DNA of 64,000 nt from Leptothrix discophora. Its GTDB lineage: Bacteria > Pseudomonadota > Gammaproteobacteria > Burkholderiales > Burkholderiaceae_C. Where the stretch lies: NCBI RefSeq assembly GCF_030705305.1, contig NZ_JAUZEE010000002.1:501794-565793 (forward strand). Reading direction: 5' to 3'. The translations under genes and the position numbers were made by a program. Shown here one piece after another: positions 14,025 to 33,587 of this stretch (the stretch's first letter is position 1; each line of letters starts with the position of its first letter). Under the pieces are notes generated by a model. It searched no databases. It was not told the DNA's origin and saw only the letters and a program-made list of their open reading frames with translations.

Positions 14025-14160
14025 GTCTTGAGCGGGCCAGCGATACGCTGGGCATGTGTTCCAAGGGAGTCCCAAGGGAGCCTCGCATAACTTGCCGGAT
14101 CGACCGACATGCGCAACGATCTCGTCATGCTCATTCAGCGCTTCGATCTTGCCGTCCGCA

Positions 14161-14198
14161 AAACAAAACGGCCGACAGCTTGTGGCTGTCGGCCGTTT
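14161..14198 (-). terminator. Rho-independent terminator of tRNA-Leu
   Basis: A perfect 14-bp inverted repeat (14166-14179 with 14185-14198; AAACGGCCGACAGC/GCTGTCGGCCGTTT) with a 5-base loop. Read on the minus strand it stands just after the tRNA CCA end and is followed by a T-rich run (TTTTGTTT), as expected for the tRNA terminator. Confidence 0.85.
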
Positions 14199-14203
14199 GA
14201 TGA

Positions 14204-14288
<85 letters not shown>

Positions 14289-14331
14289 TTGACCTGTCGT
14301 TTTCTTGTTCTTTTTCTTCTGTCTTTCTTTC

Positions 14332-14361
14332 GTTGATTGCTGCTGTGTTGCAGTGATCAAC
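14332..14361. repeat. Inverted repeat between tRNA-Leu and rnr
   Basis: Left arm 14332-14343 and right arm 14350-14361 pair over 12 positions, 10 Watson-Crick and two wobble pairs in RNA, with a 6-base loop. It sits in an unusually A+T-rich stretch in the divergent region. Neither strand has a T-run right after it, so it is not an intrinsic terminator. Its role is unknown: operator or processing signal are both possible. Confidence 0.5.
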
Positions 14362-14371
14362 CGAGAAAGAA

Positions 14372-14401
14372 AGTGTAGCATCCATCGAATTCGAAAAGCA
14401 A
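14372..14401 (-). promoter_or_regulatory. Candidate promoter of tRNA-Leu
   Basis: On the minus strand TTGCTT (14401-14396) and TACACT (14377-14372) are separated by 18 bases, a reasonable sigma-70 promoter pointing toward the tRNA about 84 bases away. The rest of 14289-14411 holds the inverted repeat above and pyrimidine-rich sequence; no gene is seen in it. Confidence 0.4.
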
Positions 14402-14411
14402 GAGGTATTGT

Positions 14412-16781
14412 TTGAACGCCACACTCATGAGTGAGATCGAGGGCACGGTGCAGGGGCACCGCGATGGACACGGGTTCGTGATCCGGGAAGACGGGGAGCC
14501 AGACATTTATCTGGCACCGCAGGAGATGCGGGCGGTGCTGCACCGTGACCGCGTCAAGGTCCGGGTGATCCGCCTGGACCGCAAGGGGCGGCCAGAGGGC
14601 CGCGTGCTGGAGATCATCGAGCGCAAGCGCGCACCGATCATTGGCCGGCTGCTGCTCGAGGGCGGCGCGTGGATCGTGGCGCCGGAAGACAAGCGCTACG
14701 GCCAGGACATCCTGATTCCGAAGAACGCGACCGCCAAGGCCGAGGCTGGCCAGGTCGTCGCGATCGAGTTGACCGAGCCGCCGTCGCTGTATTCGCAGCC
14801 GGTGGGCCGGATCACCGAGGTGCTCGGTGACATCGACGATCCCGGGATGGAGATCGAGATCGCGGTGCGCAAGTACGAGGTGCCGCATCGCTTCTCGACC
14901 GAGACGCTGGCGCAGACCGCCAAGCTGCCCGACCGCCTGCGGGCTGTCGACCTCAAGGGCCGCGTCGACCTGCGCGACGTGCCGCTGGTGACGATCGACG
15001 GTGAGGACGCCCGCGACTTCGACGACGCCGTCTATTGCGAGCCCGCCAAGGTCGGACGCGCCAAGGGCTGGCGTCTGCTGGTGGCGATCGCCGACGTGAG
15101 CCACTACGTCAAGCCGGGCGAGGCCCTCGACGGCGACGCCTTCGAGCGCGCCACCTCGGTCTACTTCCCGCGCCGGGTCATCCCGATGCTGCCGGAGAAG
15201 CTGTCCAACGGCCTGTGTTCGCTGAACCCGGACGAGGAACGCCTGTCCATGGTCTGCGACATGCTGGTCGACCCGATCGGCGAGGTGCAGGCCTACCAGT
15301 TCTACCCGGCGGTGATCCTGTCGCACGCGCGCTTCACCTACAACGAGGTGGCCGCGATCCTCGCCAACACGCGCGGACCCGAGGCCCGCAAGCGCGCGGC
15401 GCGGGTCAACGACCTGATCAACCTGCACGAGGTCTATCGGGCCTTGCTCAAGCAGCGGGCGACGCGCGGTGCGGTCGACTTCGAGACCACCGAGACCCAG
15501 ATCGTCTGCGACGACAACGGCCGCATCGAGAAGATCGTGCCGAGAACGCGCACCGAGGCGCACCGCCTGATCGAGGAAGCGATGCTGGCGGCCAACGTCT
15601 GCGCCGCCGACTTCATCCACGGCGCCAAGCACCCGAGCCTCTTCCGGGTCCATGAAGGCCCGACGCCGGAGAAGCGCCAGACGCTGCAGAACTACCTGCG
15701 CTCGATGGGTCTGGGCTTCGTGCTGAGCGAGGACCCGAAGCCTTCCGAGTTGCAGACCATCGCGCAGCAGACGCGCGACCGGCCCGATGCGGCGCAGATC
15801 CACCAGATGCTGTTGCGCGCGATGCAGCAGGCCATCTACACCCCCACCAACAGCGGCCACTTCGGACTCGCCTACGAGGCCTACACGCACTTCACCAGCC
15901 CGATCCGGCGCTACCCGGACCTGCTGGTGCATCGCGTGATCAAGGCCATCCTGGGCGGCAAGAAGTACACGATCGACCTGCCGCGCCCGCCCAACACGGG
16001 CAGCGACCGGCGCGGCCTGGCCCAGGCGGCCAAGAACGCCAAGGCCGCGCGCGAGCAGGAGTCGCATGCGCACCTCAAGCCCGCCAAGGGCGGTGCGGCG
16101 AAGTTGTCGCAGGCACAAGGCAACTGGGAAGCCGCCGGCATCCATTGCAGCGCCAACGAGCGCCGCGCCGACGAGGCCTCGCGTGACGTCGAGGCCTGGC
16201 TCAAGTGCAAGTTCATGCGCGACCGCCTCGGCGAGGAATACGCCGGCACGATCAGCGCGGTCACCAGCTTCGGCCTGTTCGTGCAGCTCAACGACCTGTA
16301 CGTCGAGGGCCTGGTGCACATCACCGAACTGGGTGGCGAGTACTACCGTTTTGACGAGGTGCGACAGGAACTGCGCGGCGAACGCACCGGCGTGCGCTAT
16401 GCCGTCGGTGGCCGCATCCGCGTGCAGGTCAGCCGGGTCGACCTGGACGGCCGCAAGATCGACTTCCGGCTGGTCCGCGAAGGCGGTGCGACGGCGCCCG
16501 GTGCGTCGCAGCGCAGCCCGCGCGAGCGCACGCCCAAGACCGGTGGTGCTCCCAAGGCGGGCAGCGCGCAGGACGAACTGGCCAGCGTGCAGGAGACCGA
16601 TCGCGAGGTCCGCAAGGCCGCGCGCAAGGCCGCCGGCAGCGCGACCCGCAAGGCCCGACCGGCCAAGGCGTCCAAGGCCGGCAAGGGCAAGGCGACCGCA
16701 GCGGGCAAGGGCGCCAGCGCGGCCGCCGGCGATGGCAGCGCGGTCACGCGCAGCGCCAAGCCGCGTCGATCGCGCAGCTGA
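14412..16781 (+). CDS. rnr: Ribonuclease R
   Basis: Processive 3'-5' exoribonuclease that degrades structured RNA. The 789-residue protein has an N-terminal cold-shock-like OB domain (GTVQGHRDGHGFVIRED), the RNB catalytic domain with the acidic cluster DGEDARDFDDAV near residues 196-207, and an S1 domain (about residues 610-690, GTISAVTSFGLFVQLNDLYV). A basic linker of ~55 residues (about 519-572) separates RNB from the region before S1, and the last ~90 residues are Lys/Arg/Ala-rich. TTG 14412 has AGAGGT five bases upstream and is my preferred start; ATG 14427 is the alternative. Confidence 0.95.
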   Translation: MNATLMSEIEGTVQGHRDGHGFVIREDGEPDIYLAPQEMRAVLHRDRVKVRVIRLDRKGRPEGRVLEIIERKRAPIIGRLLLEGGAWIVAPEDKRYGQDILIPKNATAKAEAGQVVAIELTEPPSLYSQPVGRITEVLGDIDDPGMEIEIAVRKYEVPHRFSTETLAQTAKLPDRLRAVDLKGRVDLRDVPLVTIDGEDARDFDDAVYCEPAKVGRAKGWRLLVAIADVSHYVKPGEALDGDAFERATSVYFPRRVIPMLPEKLSNGLCSLNPDEERLSMVCDMLVDPIGEVQAYQFYPAVILSHARFTYNEVAAILANTRGPEARKRAARVNDLINLHEVYRALLKQRATRGAVDFETTETQIVCDDNGRIEKIVPRTRTEAHRLIEEAMLAANVCAADFIHGAKHPSLFRVHEGPTPEKRQTLQNYLRSMGLGFVLSEDPKPSELQTIAQQTRDRPDAAQIHQMLLRAMQQAIYTPTNSGHFGLAYEAYTHFTSPIRRYPDLLVHRVIKAILGGKKYTIDLPRPPNTGSDRRGLAQAAKNAKAAREQESHAHLKPAKGGAAKLSQAQGNWEAAGIHCSANERRADEASRDVEAWLKCKFMRDRLGEEYAGTISAVTSFGLFVQLNDLYVEGLVHITELGGEYYRFDEVRQELRGERTGVRYAVGGRIRVQVSRVDLDGRKIDFRLVREGGATAPGASQRSPRERTPKTGGAPKAGSAQDELASVQETDREVRKAARKAAGSATRKARPAKASKAGKGKATAAGKGASAAAGDGSAVTRSAKPRRSRS

Positions 16782-26877: not shown

Positions 26878-28100
26878 ACGCTGCTGCCACCCCGAACCGC
26901 CCGACCCCGGCCTCCGGCCGGCTGCGGGTGTGCATCCTCGGTTCGACCGGCTCGATCGGCACCAGCACGCTGGACGTGCTGGCCCGCCATCCCGATGCCT
27001 ACGAGGTCACCACGCTGACCGCGCACAGCCGCATCGACGCGTTGGCCGCGCAGTGCCTCGCCTGGCGTCCGCGCCAGGCCGTGGTGGCACGGCCCGAGCA
27101 GGCCACCGACCTGCAGGCACGCCTGCGCGCGGCCGGTCTCGCGACCGAGGTGCTGCACGGCGCCGCCGCGCTGGAGCAGGTCGCCGCCGACCCGGGCACC
27201 GATGCGGTCATGGCGGCCATCGTCGGCGCGGCCGGCCTGCCGCCCTGCCTGGCCGCCGCACGCGCCGGCAAGCGGCTGATGCTGGCCAACAAGGAGGCGA
27301 TCGTGCTGGGCGGCGCACTCTTCATGGGTGCGGTGAAGTCCGGCGGCGCGATGCTGCTGCCGATCGACAGCGAGCATTCGGCGATCTTCCAGTGCCTGCC
27401 GGAGGACCGTTCGGCCTGGGCCTCGCGCATCGACCACATCGTGCTGACCGCCTCGGGCGGGCCGTTCCGCGACCGCGATCCGGCCACGCTGCACAGCGTC
27501 ACGCCCGACCAGGCCTGCGCGCATCCGAACTGGGTCATGGGCCGCAAGATCTCGGTCGATTCGGCCACGATGATGAACAAGGCACTCGAGGTGATCGAGG
27601 CACGCTGGCTGTTCGACCTGCAGCCCGAGCAGGTCCGCGTCGTGCTGCATCCGCAGAGCATCATCCATTCGATGGTCGTCTGCCGCGACAACTCGGTGCT
27701 GGCACAGTTGGGCACGCCCGACATGCGCGTGCCGATCGCCTATGGCCTGAGCTGGCCGGCGCGCATCGAGTCCGGCGCGGCACGGCTGGACTTCCTCGGC
27801 CTCAAGCCGCTGACCTTCGAGACCGCCGACGCGCACCGCTACCCGGCGCTGCCGCTGGCCTGGCAGGCGCTGCGCGCCCGCGAGGGCAGCACGGCGGTCC
27901 TGAACGCCGCCAACGAGGTGGCGGTCGAGGCCTTCCTCGGCGGTCGACTGCGCTACGACCGCATCGCCACGCTGAACGCCGACGTGCTGGCGCGCCTGGC
28001 GGTGCCCGAAACCGCGGCTGCCTCGGTCGAGGGCCTGCTGGCGCTTGACCAGGAAGCCCGCGCGCTGGCCCGCCAGTGCCTGGCCGAGCTGTCGGCCTGA
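26874..28100 (+). CDS. dxr: 1-deoxy-D-xylulose 5-phosphate reductoisomerase
   Basis: First committed enzyme of the MEP pathway, the same pathway as ispG. The 408-residue protein has the NADPH motif LGSTGSIGTSTLDV (residues ~22-35), the metal and substrate motifs LLPIDSEHSAIFQCL and TASGGPFRD, and WVMGRKISVDSATMMNK. It starts inside the cdsA stop (ATGA). Family length is about 400. Confidence 0.97.
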   Translation: MNAAATPNRPTPASGRLRVCILGSTGSIGTSTLDVLARHPDAYEVTTLTAHSRIDALAAQCLAWRPRQAVVARPEQATDLQARLRAAGLATEVLHGAAALEQVAADPGTDAVMAAIVGAAGLPPCLAAARAGKRLMLANKEAIVLGGALFMGAVKSGGAMLLPIDSEHSAIFQCLPEDRSAWASRIDHIVLTASGGPFRDRDPATLHSVTPDQACAHPNWVMGRKISVDSATMMNKALEVIEARWLFDLQPEQVRVVLHPQSIIHSMVVCRDNSVLAQLGTPDMRVPIAYGLSWPARIESGAARLDFLGLKPLTFETADAHRYPALPLAWQALRAREGSTAVLNAANEVAVEAFLGGRLRYDRIATLNADVLARLAVPETAAASVEGLLALDQEARALARQCLAELSA

Positions 28101-28119
28101 TGTCCTCCACCGAGCGCGC

Positions 28120-29670
28120 ATGAACACCTTGCTGTCCTTCCTGTTGACGCTGGCGGTGCTGATCGCCGTGCACGAATGGGGCCACTACCGAGCCGCCCGG
28201 GCCTGCAACGTCAAGGTGCTGCGCTTCTCGATCGGCTTCGGCCGGCCGATCTGGCGACGCCTGCGCGGCGAGACCGAATGGGTCGTCGGACTGCTGCCGC
28301 TGGGTGGCTACGTGCGCATGCTCGACGAGCGCGAGGCGCCGGTCGCGCCCGAGGAGCGGCACCGCGCCTTCAACCTCAAGCCGCTGCGGCAGCGTGCCTT
28401 CATCGTCGTGGCCGGACCGCTGGCCAACCTCGTGCTGGCGGTGCTGCTGTATGCCGCCGCCCACTGGGTCGGCACCGACGAGCCGCTGCCGCTGCTGGGG
28501 ACGCCGGTGGCCGGATCGCCCGCAGAACAGGCTGGCGTGATGGCCGGAGACCAGGTGCTGCGCCTGGGCGACGTCGGCAGCGCCGGCCGGCCGGTGCTGT
28601 CCTTCACCGAGCTGCGCTGGCAGCTGACGCGCGCCGCGCTGGACGGCCGCGACGTCGTGCTGCAGGTGCGCCGCAGCGATGGCAGCGACGCCGAGCTGCA
28701 CATCGGCCTGGCCGCGCTGGGCGTGACCGATGCCGACCCCGGCCTGATGCGCCGCATCGGCCTGCCCGGGCCGCTGTCCGAACCGGTGCTGGGTGACATC
28801 GTCGCCGGCGGGGCGGCCGAGCGGGCCGGACTGCGCACCGGCGACCGGGTCCTCAGCGTCGACGGCCATCCGGTGACCGACGGTGCCGCGCTGCGCGCCA
28901 TGATCCGCGCCGCTGCGCGCGACGTGGATGCACGTCCGGCCACGTCGGCGGCCGCGTCGGCGGCAAACCCGACGGCCGTCCACGCGGCGTCGACCTCAGG
29001 TCCCGCCGCTTCGCCGGCCTTCGGCACGGCTTCTGCGCCGTCCATCACCGAATTGGCACCGGCCGCCGAGATCGCCGATCCGCTGCAGGCTGCGGCCGCA
29101 CCCGCGCCGGCCGAGTTGCCGCCTGGCAGCCAGCTCTGGCATGTCGACCGGGCCGGGCAGCGGCTCGAGATCGTCGTGACGCCGGCGATCGTCGATGACC
29201 GCGGCCAGCGCGTCGGCCGCATCGAGGCGGTGGTCGGCTCGGGCGTGAAGATGGCGCTGGTGCGGCTTGGTCCGGTCGATGGCCTGACGCGGGGCGTCGA
29301 GCGCACCGGCGAGATGGCGATGTTGACGCTGAAGATGCTTGTTCGCATCGCCACCGGCGAAGCCTCGCCGCGCAACCTCAGCGGCCCGCTGACCATCGCC
29401 GAATACGCCGGCCAGTCGGTCCAGCTCGGCCTGGCCTACTACCTCGGCTTCCTGGCCGTCGTCAGCGTCAGCCTGGGCGTGCTCAACCTGCTGCCGCTGC
29501 CGATGCTCGACGGTGGCCACCTGCTGTTCTATGCGGTCGAGGCGGTGTTCGGGCGACCGATCCCCGATGCCTGGATCGAACGCCTCCAACGCGGCGGCCT
29601 GTTCATCATCCTGGTGATGATGTCGCTGGCGCTCTACAACGACGTCGCCCGGCTGTTCGGGCAGATGTGA
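28120..29670 (+). CDS. rseP: Site-2 intramembrane metalloprotease RseP
   Basis: Cleaves membrane anti-sigma factors such as RseA and removes signal-peptide remnants. The zinc motif is HEWGH (H18, E19, H22) in the first membrane helix and the third ligand region is PLPMLDGGHLLF near the C-terminus. Two PDZ domains lie between. At 516 residues it is longer than the usual ~450: an Ala/Pro/Ser/Thr-rich insert at about residues 268-333 interrupts the second PDZ domain. Start ATG 28120 is 19 bases after dxr; bamA follows 31 bases later. Confidence 0.95.
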   Translation: MNTLLSFLLTLAVLIAVHEWGHYRAARACNVKVLRFSIGFGRPIWRRLRGETEWVVGLLPLGGYVRMLDEREAPVAPEERHRAFNLKPLRQRAFIVVAGPLANLVLAVLLYAAAHWVGTDEPLPLLGTPVAGSPAEQAGVMAGDQVLRLGDVGSAGRPVLSFTELRWQLTRAALDGRDVVLQVRRSDGSDAELHIGLAALGVTDADPGLMRRIGLPGPLSEPVLGDIVAGGAAERAGLRTGDRVLSVDGHPVTDGAALRAMIRAAARDVDARPATSAAASAANPTAVHAASTSGPAASPAFGTASAPSITELAPAAEIADPLQAAAAPAPAELPPGSQLWHVDRAGQRLEIVVTPAIVDDRGQRVGRIEAVVGSGVKMALVRLGPVDGLTRGVERTGEMAMLTLKMLVRIATGEASPRNLSGPLTIAEYAGQSVQLGLAYYLGFLAVVSVSLGVLNLLPLPMLDGGHLLFYAVEAVFGRPIPDAWIERLQRGGLFIILVMMSLALYNDVARLFGQM

Positions 29671-29701: not shown

Positions 29702-32014
29702 ATGCCATCACCTGCACCCCTCCGTTCCACTTCCCGCCTGGTCGCGGCCATCGCCGCCGGCTGGCTCGGCCTGGGCCTGCCGGCCTGGGCGGTGTCGCCC
29801 TTCGTGTTGCAGGACATCCGCATCGAGGGCCTGCAGCGCACCGAGGCCGGCACCGTGTTCGCGTCGCTGCCTTTCCGCGTCGGCGACACCTACAACGACG
29901 ACAAGGGCGCCGCCGCGCTGCGCGCGCTGTTCGCCACCGGCCTGTTCAAGGACGTGCGCCTGGAGGTCACCGGCCAGGTCGTCGTGGTGGTGATCGAGGA
30001 GCGCCCGATCATCGCCAGCGTCGACTTCACCGGCACCAGCGAGTTCGACCGCGACACGCTGGTCAAGGCTCTGAAGGACGTCGGCATCGGCGAGGGCCAG
30101 CCCTTCGACCGCGGCCTGGCCGACCGCGCCGAGCAGGAGCTCAAGCGCCAGTACCTGACCCGCAGCTACTACGGCGCCGAGGTCGTCACCACCATCACCC
30201 CGATCGAGCGCAACCGCGTCAACGTGAGCTTCGCGGTGACCGAGGGCGGCATCGCCCGCATCGGCGAGATCCGCATCACCGGCAGCAAGGACTTCTCCGA
30301 GAGCACGCTGCTGTCCGAGCTGGACCTGACCGCCGGTGGCCTGATGACCTGGTACACGAAGAGCGACCGCTATTCGCGCGCCAAGCTCAACGCCGACCTG
30401 GAGACGCTGCGGGCCTGGTACCTCAACCGCGGCTACCTCGAGTTCGTGGTCGAGTCGACCCAGGTGGCGATCTCGCCGGACAAGCAGTCGATCTCCATCA
30501 CCATCAACATTCGCGAAGGCCAGCAGTACACCGTCACGGCGGTGCGGCTGTCGGGCGACTACCTGGGCAAGGACGACGAGTTCAAGTCGCTCATCACGAT
30601 CAAGCCCGGCGAGCCCTACCGCGCCGAGGCCGTCAACGAGACCCAGCGTGCCTTCACCGACCGCTTCGGCCTGTTCGGTTTCGCCTTCGCGCGGGTCGAG
30701 ACGGTGCCGCAGGTCGACCGCAACACCGGCCGCGTGCAGGTGCAGCTCAACGCCGATCCGGGCCGACGCGCCTACGTGCGCCGCATCAACGTGGCCGGCA
30801 ACTCGCGCACCCGCGACGAGGTCATCCGGCGCGAGCTGCGCCAGCTCGAATCGGCCTGGTACGACGGCGCACGCATCCAGCTCTCGCGCGACCGGGTCGA
30901 CCGCCTGGGCTACTTCAGCGAGGTCGAGTTCGACACCAGCGAGGTGCCGGGCACGTCCGACCAGGTCGACCTGACGCTCAACGTGACCGAGAAGGCCACC
31001 GGCAGCCTGCTGCTGGGCGCGACCTTCTCCAGCGCCGAGAAGCTGTCGTTCAACTTCGCGGTCAAGCAGGACAACGTCTTCGGCACCGGCAACTACCTGG
31101 GCGTCGAGCTCAACACCGGCAAGCTCGCGCGCACGCTGGTGCTGACGCACGTGAACCCCTACTTCACCGAGGACGGCATCTCGCGCACGCTGGATGTCTT
31201 CTACCGCACCAACCGGCCGCTCAACAGCCAGGGCGAGGACTACCAGCTGGTCACGCCGGGTGCGTCGGTGCGCTTCGGCGTGCCCTTCACCGAGCTGGAC
31301 ACGGTCTTCTTCGGCATCGGCGCCGAGCGCACCACGATCAAGGCGGCCAACGCGCTGCCCGAGGTCTACTTCCGCCAGCGCGCCCAGTTCGGCGACAGCA
31401 GTTCGTCGGTGCCGCTGACGCTGGGCTGGCAGCGCGACGGCCGCGACTCCGCGCTGGTGCCCAATCGCGGCCTCTACCAGCGCCTGAACGTGGAGTGGGG
31501 CGTCGCCGGCGACACCCGCTACGTGCGCAACAACTACCAGATCCAGCAGTACATCCCGCTCAACAAGCGCTTCACGCTGGGCCTGAACGGCGAGTTCGGC
31601 TGGGGCCAGGGCCTGAACGGCCGCAGCTACCCGGTGTTCAAGAACTTCTACGGCGGCGGCCTGGGCACGGTGCGTGCCTTCGACCAGAACTCGCTGGGGG
31701 CGGTCGACGTGACCGGCGCCTACCTCGGCGGCAACCGGCGCCTGAACCTCAATGCCGAGCTGTACGTGCCCTTCCCGGGCGTGGGCAACGACCGCACGCT
31801 GCGCATCTTCGGCTATGCCGACGCCGGCAATGTCTGGCGCGAGGGCGAGAAGATCGGTGACTCGAAGGAGAACCCGATCCGCATGTCGGCCGGCGTCGGC
31901 CTGTCCTGGGTCTCTCCGGTGGGGCCGCTCAAGCTGTCCTGGGGCCAGCCTTTGCGCTATGCCCGTACGGATAGAATCCAGCGCTTCCAGTTCCAGATCG
32001 GTACCGCATTCTGA
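29702..32014 (+). CDS. bamA: Outer membrane protein assembly factor BamA
   Basis: Essential Omp85 protein that inserts beta-barrels into the outer membrane. The 770-residue precursor has a signal peptide ending near LPAWA (residue ~30), five POTRA domains (to about residue 430) and a 16-strand barrel ending in phenylalanine (FQFQIGTAF), as barrel proteins do. The conserved loop-6 motif, usually VRGF or VRGY, reads VRAF at residues 657-660. The stop codon overlaps the ompH ATG by one base. BamB of the same complex is at 4042. Confidence 0.97.
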   Translation: MPSPAPLRSTSRLVAAIAAGWLGLGLPAWAVSPFVLQDIRIEGLQRTEAGTVFASLPFRVGDTYNDDKGAAALRALFATGLFKDVRLEVTGQVVVVVIEERPIIASVDFTGTSEFDRDTLVKALKDVGIGEGQPFDRGLADRAEQELKRQYLTRSYYGAEVVTTITPIERNRVNVSFAVTEGGIARIGEIRITGSKDFSESTLLSELDLTAGGLMTWYTKSDRYSRAKLNADLETLRAWYLNRGYLEFVVESTQVAISPDKQSISITINIREGQQYTVTAVRLSGDYLGKDDEFKSLITIKPGEPYRAEAVNETQRAFTDRFGLFGFAFARVETVPQVDRNTGRVQVQLNADPGRRAYVRRINVAGNSRTRDEVIRRELRQLESAWYDGARIQLSRDRVDRLGYFSEVEFDTSEVPGTSDQVDLTLNVTEKATGSLLLGATFSSAEKLSFNFAVKQDNVFGTGNYLGVELNTGKLARTLVLTHVNPYFTEDGISRTLDVFYRTNRPLNSQGEDYQLVTPGASVRFGVPFTELDTVFFGIGAERTTIKAANALPEVYFRQRAQFGDSSSSVPLTLGWQRDGRDSALVPNRGLYQRLNVEWGVAGDTRYVRNNYQIQQYIPLNKRFTLGLNGEFGWGQGLNGRSYPVFKNFYGGGLGTVRAFDQNSLGAVDVTGAYLGGNRRLNLNAELYVPFPGVGNDRTLRIFGYADAGNVWREGEKIGDSKENPIRMSAGVGLSWVSPVGPLKLSWGQPLRYARTDRIQRFQFQIGTAF
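31972..31977 (+). promoter_or_regulatory. Possible internal -10 element before ompH
   Basis: TAGAAT followed by CC lies within the last codons of bamA, 36 bases before the ompH ATG; TTTGCG (31951-31956) is a poor -35 at 15-base spacing. It could drive ompH-lpxD transcription independently of bamA. Confidence 0.3.
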
Positions 32015-32535
32015 TGAAGAAGCTCACGCTCTTGATGCTGGCCACTGCGGCCATGCTGACCTTGTCCGCCCCGATGCTGCGGGCCCAGGAACTCAAGATC
32101 GGCTACGTCAGCAGCGATCGCGTGCTGCGCGACGCCGTGCCGGCCAAGGCAGCGCTAGCCAAGCTCGAGACTGAGTTTGGAAAGCGAAAAAAGGATCTTG
32201 ATGACTTTGCGGCACGCATTAAGACTGCGGGCGATAAGTTGAACAAGGATGCACCTACCTTGTCGGAGTCTGAACGAGATCGGCGACAGCGCGAGCTTGT
32301 TGATCAGGAACGTGAACTCAGCCGAAAGCGTCGTGAGTACCAAGAAGACGTGACTCAGCGCCAAAACGAAGAGCTGACTGCTGTTATCGAGCGTGCAAAT
32401 AAAGCAATCAAGCAGATCTTTGAGCAAGAAAAGTACGACCTTATTGTTCAAGATGCGATTCATGCGAGCGCCCGCGTCGACATCACCGACAAGGTGATCA
32501 AGGCCCTGAACGCACAGGCCCCCGCGGCCAAGTGA
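32014..32535 (+). CDS. ompH: OmpH/Skp-family periplasmic chaperone
   Basis: Skp-like chaperone that holds unfolded outer-membrane proteins on the way to BAM. The 173-residue precursor has a signal peptide with cleavage expected after LRA (residue ~24), then the conserved [15 protein letters not shown] and a long charged coiled coil (about residues 45-130), ending [22 protein letters not shown]. The protein is ordinary, but codons between about 32155 and 32465 are quite unlike the rest of the window: AAA, GAT, ACT, CTT, CGA and TTG are frequent and G+C is about 48%. Reading frame and length are intact. lpxD begins on the stop codon (GTGA). Confidence 0.95.
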
Positions 32536-33587
32536 ACACGCCTCACGCCCCGACCTTCACCACCACGCTGCACGAAATCCACGCGGCGCTGGGCGGTGAA
32601 CTGCTGGGCGACCCGGCTCTGGTGATCCACCGCATCGCCGCCATCGGCCAGGCCGATGCGCACGCGATCACCTTCATCGCCAACCCGCGCTACCGCGCGC
32701 AGATCGAGTCCACCGCCGCCGGCTGCGTGATCGTCGCCCCGGCGCTGGCCGAGGCGGCGGCCCAGCGCGGCGCAGCGATCGTCACGCCCGATCCCTATCA
32801 CCACTACGCCCGCCTGACCCAGTGGTGGGCGGCCCGCCTGCGTTCGGCCGTGCCGACCGGCGTGCATGCCTCGGCCGTGATCGGCGCGGGCGTCACGCTC
32901 GGTGACGGCGTCACCGTCGGTCCGCTGGCGGTGATCGAGGCCGGCGCGGTGATCGGGCCGGGCGCGACGGTCGGCGCGCAGTCCTACATCGGCGCCGGCG
33001 TGGTGGTCGGCGCGCACACCCGGCTGGCACCGCATGTCACGCTGATGCACGGCACCACGATCGGCGCGCGCGGCATCGTGCATGGCGGCGTGGTGGTCGG
33101 AGCCGATGGCTTCGGCTTCGCGCCGCACCAGGGCCGCTGGGACAAGATCGAGCAGCTCGGCGGCGTGCACATCGGCGATGACGTCGAGATCGGCGCGAAC
33201 ACCTGCATCGACCGCGGTGCACTCGGCGACACGGTGATCGGCAACGGCGTCAAGCTCGACAACCTGATCCAGGTCGGCCACAACGTCCACATCGGCGAGC
33301 ACAGCGCCATGGCCGGTTGCGTGGGCATCGCCGGCAGCGCGAAGATCGGCCGCGGCTGCACCGTCGGTGGCGGCGCGATCGTGCTGGGCCACCTTGAACT
33401 GGCCGACGGTGTGCACATCTCGGCGGCCAGCGTGGTGATGCGCTCGATCACCCGGCCGGGCCAGTACAGCGGCGTCTTCCCGATCGACGACAACGCGTCG
33501 TGGGAAAAGAACGCCGCCACCTTGCGTCAACTCCATACGCTGCGCGATCGCCTGCGTGGCCTCGAAAAGAAGATCGACACACCATGA
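32532..33587 (+). CDS. lpxD: UDP-3-O-(3-hydroxyacyl)glucosamine N-acyltransferase
   Basis: Third step of lipid A synthesis. The 351-residue protein has an N-terminal uridine-binding domain, then a left-handed beta-helix of hexapeptide repeats ([20 protein letters not shown] and on), and the LpxD-typical [14 protein letters not shown] and [13 protein letters not shown] with the catalytic histidine. Start is GTG 32532 overlapping the ompH stop; the stop overlaps the fabZ ATG. The four genes ompH-lpxD-fabZ-lpxA are clearly co-transcribed. Confidence 0.96.

Follow-up and report, generated by a model that had tools for sequence, protein, structure and literature searches.

Why does one part of a chaperone gene look foreign to the genome that carries it? 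The 64,000-nt stretch of DNA analysed here (the window) includes ompH (skp), a gene for a periplasmic chaperone, and the middle of this gene is low in G+C (hereafter the patch). We asked whether the patch is real and bounded, and whether it was brought in from elsewhere or changed in place.

A bounded low-G+C patch in ompH

The start of ompH overlaps the stop of the preceding gene, which we take to be bamA; the downstream gene is presumably lpxD. The home assembly measures 4.65 Mb in 31 contigs, and ompH lies within a contig of 605 kb (C22) as the only copy found. The OmpH family PF03938 covers residues 28–165 of the protein along the entire profile (positions 1–141 of 141), placing an OmpH domain over the mature protein, and solved OmpH chains align with residues 28–167. 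By family and by this alignment the protein resembles known Skp/OmpH chaperones, and it differs from them solely in the apparent origin of its middle segment.

Table 1. Positions, in the window, of ompH and of the features recognised within it
Feature	Positions	Strand	Basis
Gene ompH (skp) for a periplasmic chaperone of 173 aa	32014–32535	+	Pfam OmpH PF03938, E 7.9e-31
Patch of foreign appearance in the coiled-coil part, approximately codons 46/53–150/151	32149–32465	+	GC3 and mismatch change points, codon comparison
Left edge range, fuzzy	32148–32196	+	2-lnL range of mismatch scan; GC3 range codons 43–55
Right edge range, sharp	32464–32472	+	2-lnL range of mismatch scan; GC3 range codons 149–153
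Conserved DNA adjoining right edge, codons 152–168	32467–32517	+	Exact runs common to relatives
Antisense open frame, 102 codons, judged chance	32155–32463	-	ORF list; no Pfam family

The 309-nt stretches beginning at 32158 and 32161 contained 48.9% and 48.5% G+C, and the window as a whole contained 69.3%. The G+C content at third codon positions (GC3) was 0.90 in codons 1–48 of ompH, 0.49 in codons 49–151 and 0.95 in codons 152–173, with values of 0.94 in the last 250 codons of bamA and 0.92 in the first 250 codons of lpxD. A scan for two change points in GC3 selected codons 46–150 (32149–32463) as the best segment, a result reached by none of 500 shuffles, confirming the abrupt patch of low G+C and alien codons that had been reported from the letters alone. 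A second scan followed mismatches to Sphaerotilus mobilis from 300 nt upstream of ompH through codon 165; it placed change points at 32178 and 32465 (0/300 shuffles), with a mismatch rate of 0.309 inside them versus 0.082 outside. The two scans differ but are partly dependent, and the change points of composition and divergence were concordant. Both edges had been described as sudden; this held for the right edge, which is precise to a few bases, and not for the left edge, which is blurred over about 50. Thus, two divergence change points bound the block, the left one fuzzily, and its composition is foreign to the genome while its flanks are native, as in a mosaic gene.

Divergence of the patch from its nearest relative

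The nearest relative found was S. mobilis DSM 10617, at 82% over the whole of OmpH (twelve other genomes of the genus were searched; the whole-protein search took in 13). A similar codon bias in relatives, which the sequence-only reading had named as evidence against it, did not appear in S. mobilis, where 90 of the 103 codons at positions 49–151 end in G or C, compared with 50 of 103 in the window. The GC3 drop of 0.42 in the window was the largest in a set of 149 ompH rows, made up of this gene and its counterparts in 148 relatives, with some genomes represented twice; the others had a mean of 0.019 with an SD of 0.067, and the next largest drop was 0.23. We also compared G+C between C22 and contig 1 of S. 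mobilis in 66,791 overlapping windows of 300 nt that covered 211,592 aligned bases, counting alignments of 1,200 bases or more and thus DNA that has a counterpart in S. mobilis. In this comparison, the patch was the only 300-nt stretch with a difference of at least 0.08 in either direction (z -10.2).

DNA identity to S. mobilis was 0.91 and 0.88 in two parts before the patch, 0.71 in the patch and 0.93 on its 3' side (gaps allowed; 121 rows, plus-strand matches only). The protein has diverged too, and not the codons alone: 26 of 103 residues are changed in the patch, where protein identity was 0.745, compared with 0.916 in bamA and lpxD together. In 37 other pairs whose flanks were similarly or more closely related, identity in the patch was at least 0.888 throughout, although 10 of these pairs are one genome entered twice and others also repeat a genome. 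S. mobilis was nearer than the window to 63 outgroup rows: the mean difference was 0.005 for the flanking genes (seen in 49/63), 0.012 for the ompH ends (36/63) and 0.057 for the patch (57/63). Together, these results show that the foreign-looking patch is real, bounded and lineage-specific, and that the ends of ompH and the neighbouring genes are ordinary and were inherited jointly with S. mobilis.

Replacement by homologous DNA or change in place

At residues shared with S. mobilis, the same codon was used in 29 of 73 cases in the patch and 35 of 42 in the ends of ompH. Codon agreement of the patch with 146 other relatives had a mean of 0.43 and a maximum of 0.56, and S. mobilis did no better. 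At residues offering a choice of G/C-ending codons, the ones retained by the window were usually those of S. mobilis in bamA (220 of 267) and in the ends of ompH (29 of 36) but seldom in the patch (3 of 11; binomial P 9e-5, in a small test designed after the data were seen). Since drift toward A+T would spare the remaining G/C-ending codons, this mismatch favours replacement. Changes polarised to the window branch fell at 57 of 236 sites in the patch, 42 of them at third positions; the S. mobilis branch had 19 of 198, and the left end had 4 of 72 on each branch. The window-branch changes spanned all six strand-symmetric classes and nine of the 12 directed types, which speaks against a single deaminase-type hypermutation, and this spectrum together with the share of third positions suggests a long history of divergence with purifying selection at work.

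We consider it probable that in this Sphaerotilus-group bacterium the coiled-coil part of ompH was replaced, by gene conversion, with homologous DNA of an unsampled relative of lower G+C. Gene conversion from a low-G+C relative was the first of two causes proposed in the sequence-only reading, and it is the one best supported by the codons and change points, although the proposed donor was not found. In such an event, the cell would have taken up donor DNA, which paired with conserved sequence at the ends of its own ompH and displaced some 290–315 bp without disturbing either the frame or the OmpH domain; the third positions of the donor ompH would be about half G+C. The right edge adjoins a conserved stretch, and support of this kind for pairing is weaker at the left edge: exact runs of at least 20 nt with the window occurred in codons 148–168 in 75 of 147 relatives, in codons 26–56 in three of 147 and in codons 60–147 in none. 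Copying from a second template within the genome was rejected, as the assembly has no second ompH copy. Homologues of comEC and dprA (PF03772 and PF02481) were matched in the home genome; they were also matched in 10 of 14 and 11 of 14 controls, including E. coli, and being so common say little about the route of entry.

The phylogenetic evidence is less uniform. The flank tree (65 rows) joined the window and S. mobilis with an SH-aLRT value of 100. In a protein tree of codons 49–150 (90 rows), the window was again sister to S. mobilis (89/87), though its branch was long (0.50 versus 0.11), and a tree of codons 65–148 (110 rows) placed the window elsewhere without support and did not reject the S. 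mobilis pairing (p-AU 0.44). Three residues in the block, T53, D63 and H150, are common to the window and S. mobilis and uncommon elsewhere, as counted on plus-strand loci only; T53 occurs in 13 of 110 others and D63 in one of 110, and the third bases of both codons differ from those of S. mobilis. Residue rarity and nearest-patch identity were taken from 112 distinct rows out of 121, all plus-strand matches; the composition and identity counts were rerun on 149 rows, and the residue counts were also repeated. The patch protein trees do not place the donor firmly.

The patch trees and shared residues, together with the failure to find a donor, the position of S. mobilis as still the nearest patch and the unsharp left edge, count against replacement, as does the fact that the middle of ompH is more variable than its ends in another pair of relatives (L051 and L036). 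The tree of codons 49–150 and the shared T53 and D63 are in line with an alternative in which a native segment, without any import, gained many A+T-directed changes through a local mutation hotspot or through relaxed and then renewed selection on the coiled coil, and the direction of the polarised changes agrees with it, 44 of the 57 running from G/C to A/T and four the reverse. We nevertheless regard such acceleration in place as unlikely, given the few retained G/C-ending codons that match S. mobilis, the spread of changes over all classes, the sharp right edge and the lack of any comparable place in the aligned bases. A donor that was itself a lower-G+C relative of Sphaerotilus, or a mosaic left edge, would reconcile replacement with the contrary tree and residue data. 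The other cause suggested from the letters, selection on the RNA (recoding driven by a transcript from inside the gene or from its opposite strand, or by a need for slow codons ahead of export), has in its favour the antisense frame, which has a start codon and is open across the patch. This frame was judged to be open by chance because codons 49–150 lack an antisense stop in that frame in 131 of 149 rows, and selection on the nucleic acid also gained no support from searches for known RNAs, folding, promoters, terminators or protein families. Rfam gave eight weak matches in 31500–33200, none reaching the gathering score and none overlapping the patch; folding of the patch was unremarkable on the two strands (z -0.84 and -0.27); there were no sigma-70-like promoters and no terminators in 31900–32800; and the antisense frame matched no Pfam family. 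With no family, structure or promoter signal of a small-RNA gene in the patch, and with 26 of 103 residues changed, which recoding by itself would not bring about, we hold this cause to be very improbable. An artefact of assembly or contamination seems just as remote: the patch was seen in one genome only, for which the genome table gives a contamination value of 0.12, but it keeps frame and family inside a long contig in the sole ompH found, and a chimaera would presumably require exact overlaps with a diverged contaminant at both edges.

The proposed donor, known parallels and other unusual stretches

No donor with a matching patch was found among 1,151 genomes, the home genome included. The best patch identity in the family (399 genomes) was 74% among the matches listed, and the best outside the family in the order (399 genomes) was 60% among the matches listed. 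S. mobilis was the nearest patch over codons 49–150, at 75% (112 distinct plus-strand rows), and another locus (L104) reached 76% over codons 65–148 alone. Searches with a strict cut-off, covering 389 relatives of genome G057 (which contributed no new genome), 360 genomes of the class, six genomes in the genus of G202 and five in that of G351, returned only genomes already met and one sibling at 73%. A contig scan retained 80 of 458 relatives, so that a donor there may have been missed. Plasmid donors (six records, best 42%), phage donors (no match found) and viral contigs (20 stretches fitted a pattern, none of them a relative) were rejected.

In Skp, both ends of the chain form the beta core of the trimer, and the helical tentacles between them surround unfolded outer-membrane proteins (PMC3458824, PMC9820271). 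The patch would contain most of the tentacles, and the ends would form the core. It is conceivable, though we put it forward tentatively, that the client-holding arm moved whole from one genus to another and the trimer-forming body remained native, giving a working hybrid Skp, with an undescribed lower-G+C lineage near Sphaerotilus as the donor.

Homologous replacement is a known kind of event, of which ompH is probably an unusually legible example. Recombination within genes between lineages produces mosaic genes, as described in a survey of 1,462 prokaryotic gene sets, according to which regions coding for domains do not serve as modules of transfer (PMC2639706). The mosaic genes of that survey are alike in that a sub-gene segment was replaced with breakpoints within a conservative core gene; the ompH block differs in roughly spanning one structural part and in that its donor was not found. 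Natural transformation likewise yields short mosaic imports in Bacillus subtilis (PMC13344027) and Helicobacter pylori (PMC2582958, PMC2650093). Those cases share the short replaced segments, but they are experimental, and the ompH case would be a natural one, judged from composition and divergence. Among the titles listed from the open-licence literature, none concerned recombination inside ompH or skp. Genes central to outer-membrane assembly are commonly treated as vertical markers; if the replacement is true, ompH is here a mosaic, phylogenies built on its middle part would be misleading, and it offers a natural hybrid for asking whether Skp arms interchange between genera.

Divergence by itself is not unique to the patch. 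Ranked by identity to S. mobilis alone, it stands 123rd among 20,440 overlapping windows; identity is lower than 0.78 at seven further places in the window, none of them with low G+C. At 28624–29307, identity to S. mobilis drops to 0.69 at high G+C; this stretch lies inside an ORF (28045–29670) that has an Ala/Pro-rich stretch and reads like the protease RseP.

Two other ompH genes also show unusual middles. A milder case is seen at about codons 50–110 in the L051/L036 pair, with identities of 0.946 in the flanks and 0.888 in the patch; GC3 in the L051 patch is 0.19 under that of its ends, and the differences lie mainly in the arm, with unclear edges. An Aquabacterium MAG (L048) has the longest terminal branch of the patch protein tree (0.73), its flanking genes are also long-branched (0.40), and GC3 is 0.60 in its ompH arm versus 0.79 in the ends.

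Low G+C also occurs elsewhere on the contig, the first 400 kb of which contain 28 low-G+C clusters. Long low-G+C regions, down to 0.39, at 242351–282803 (loci L165–L167) and 159544–166314 (L160–L161) of C22 are perhaps genome islands. The other stretch of the window below 52% G+C, 14081–14530, contains a tRNA-Leu (cag) at 14204–14288 on the minus strand and extends into the start of an ORF (14412–16781) whose product probably resembles RNase R.
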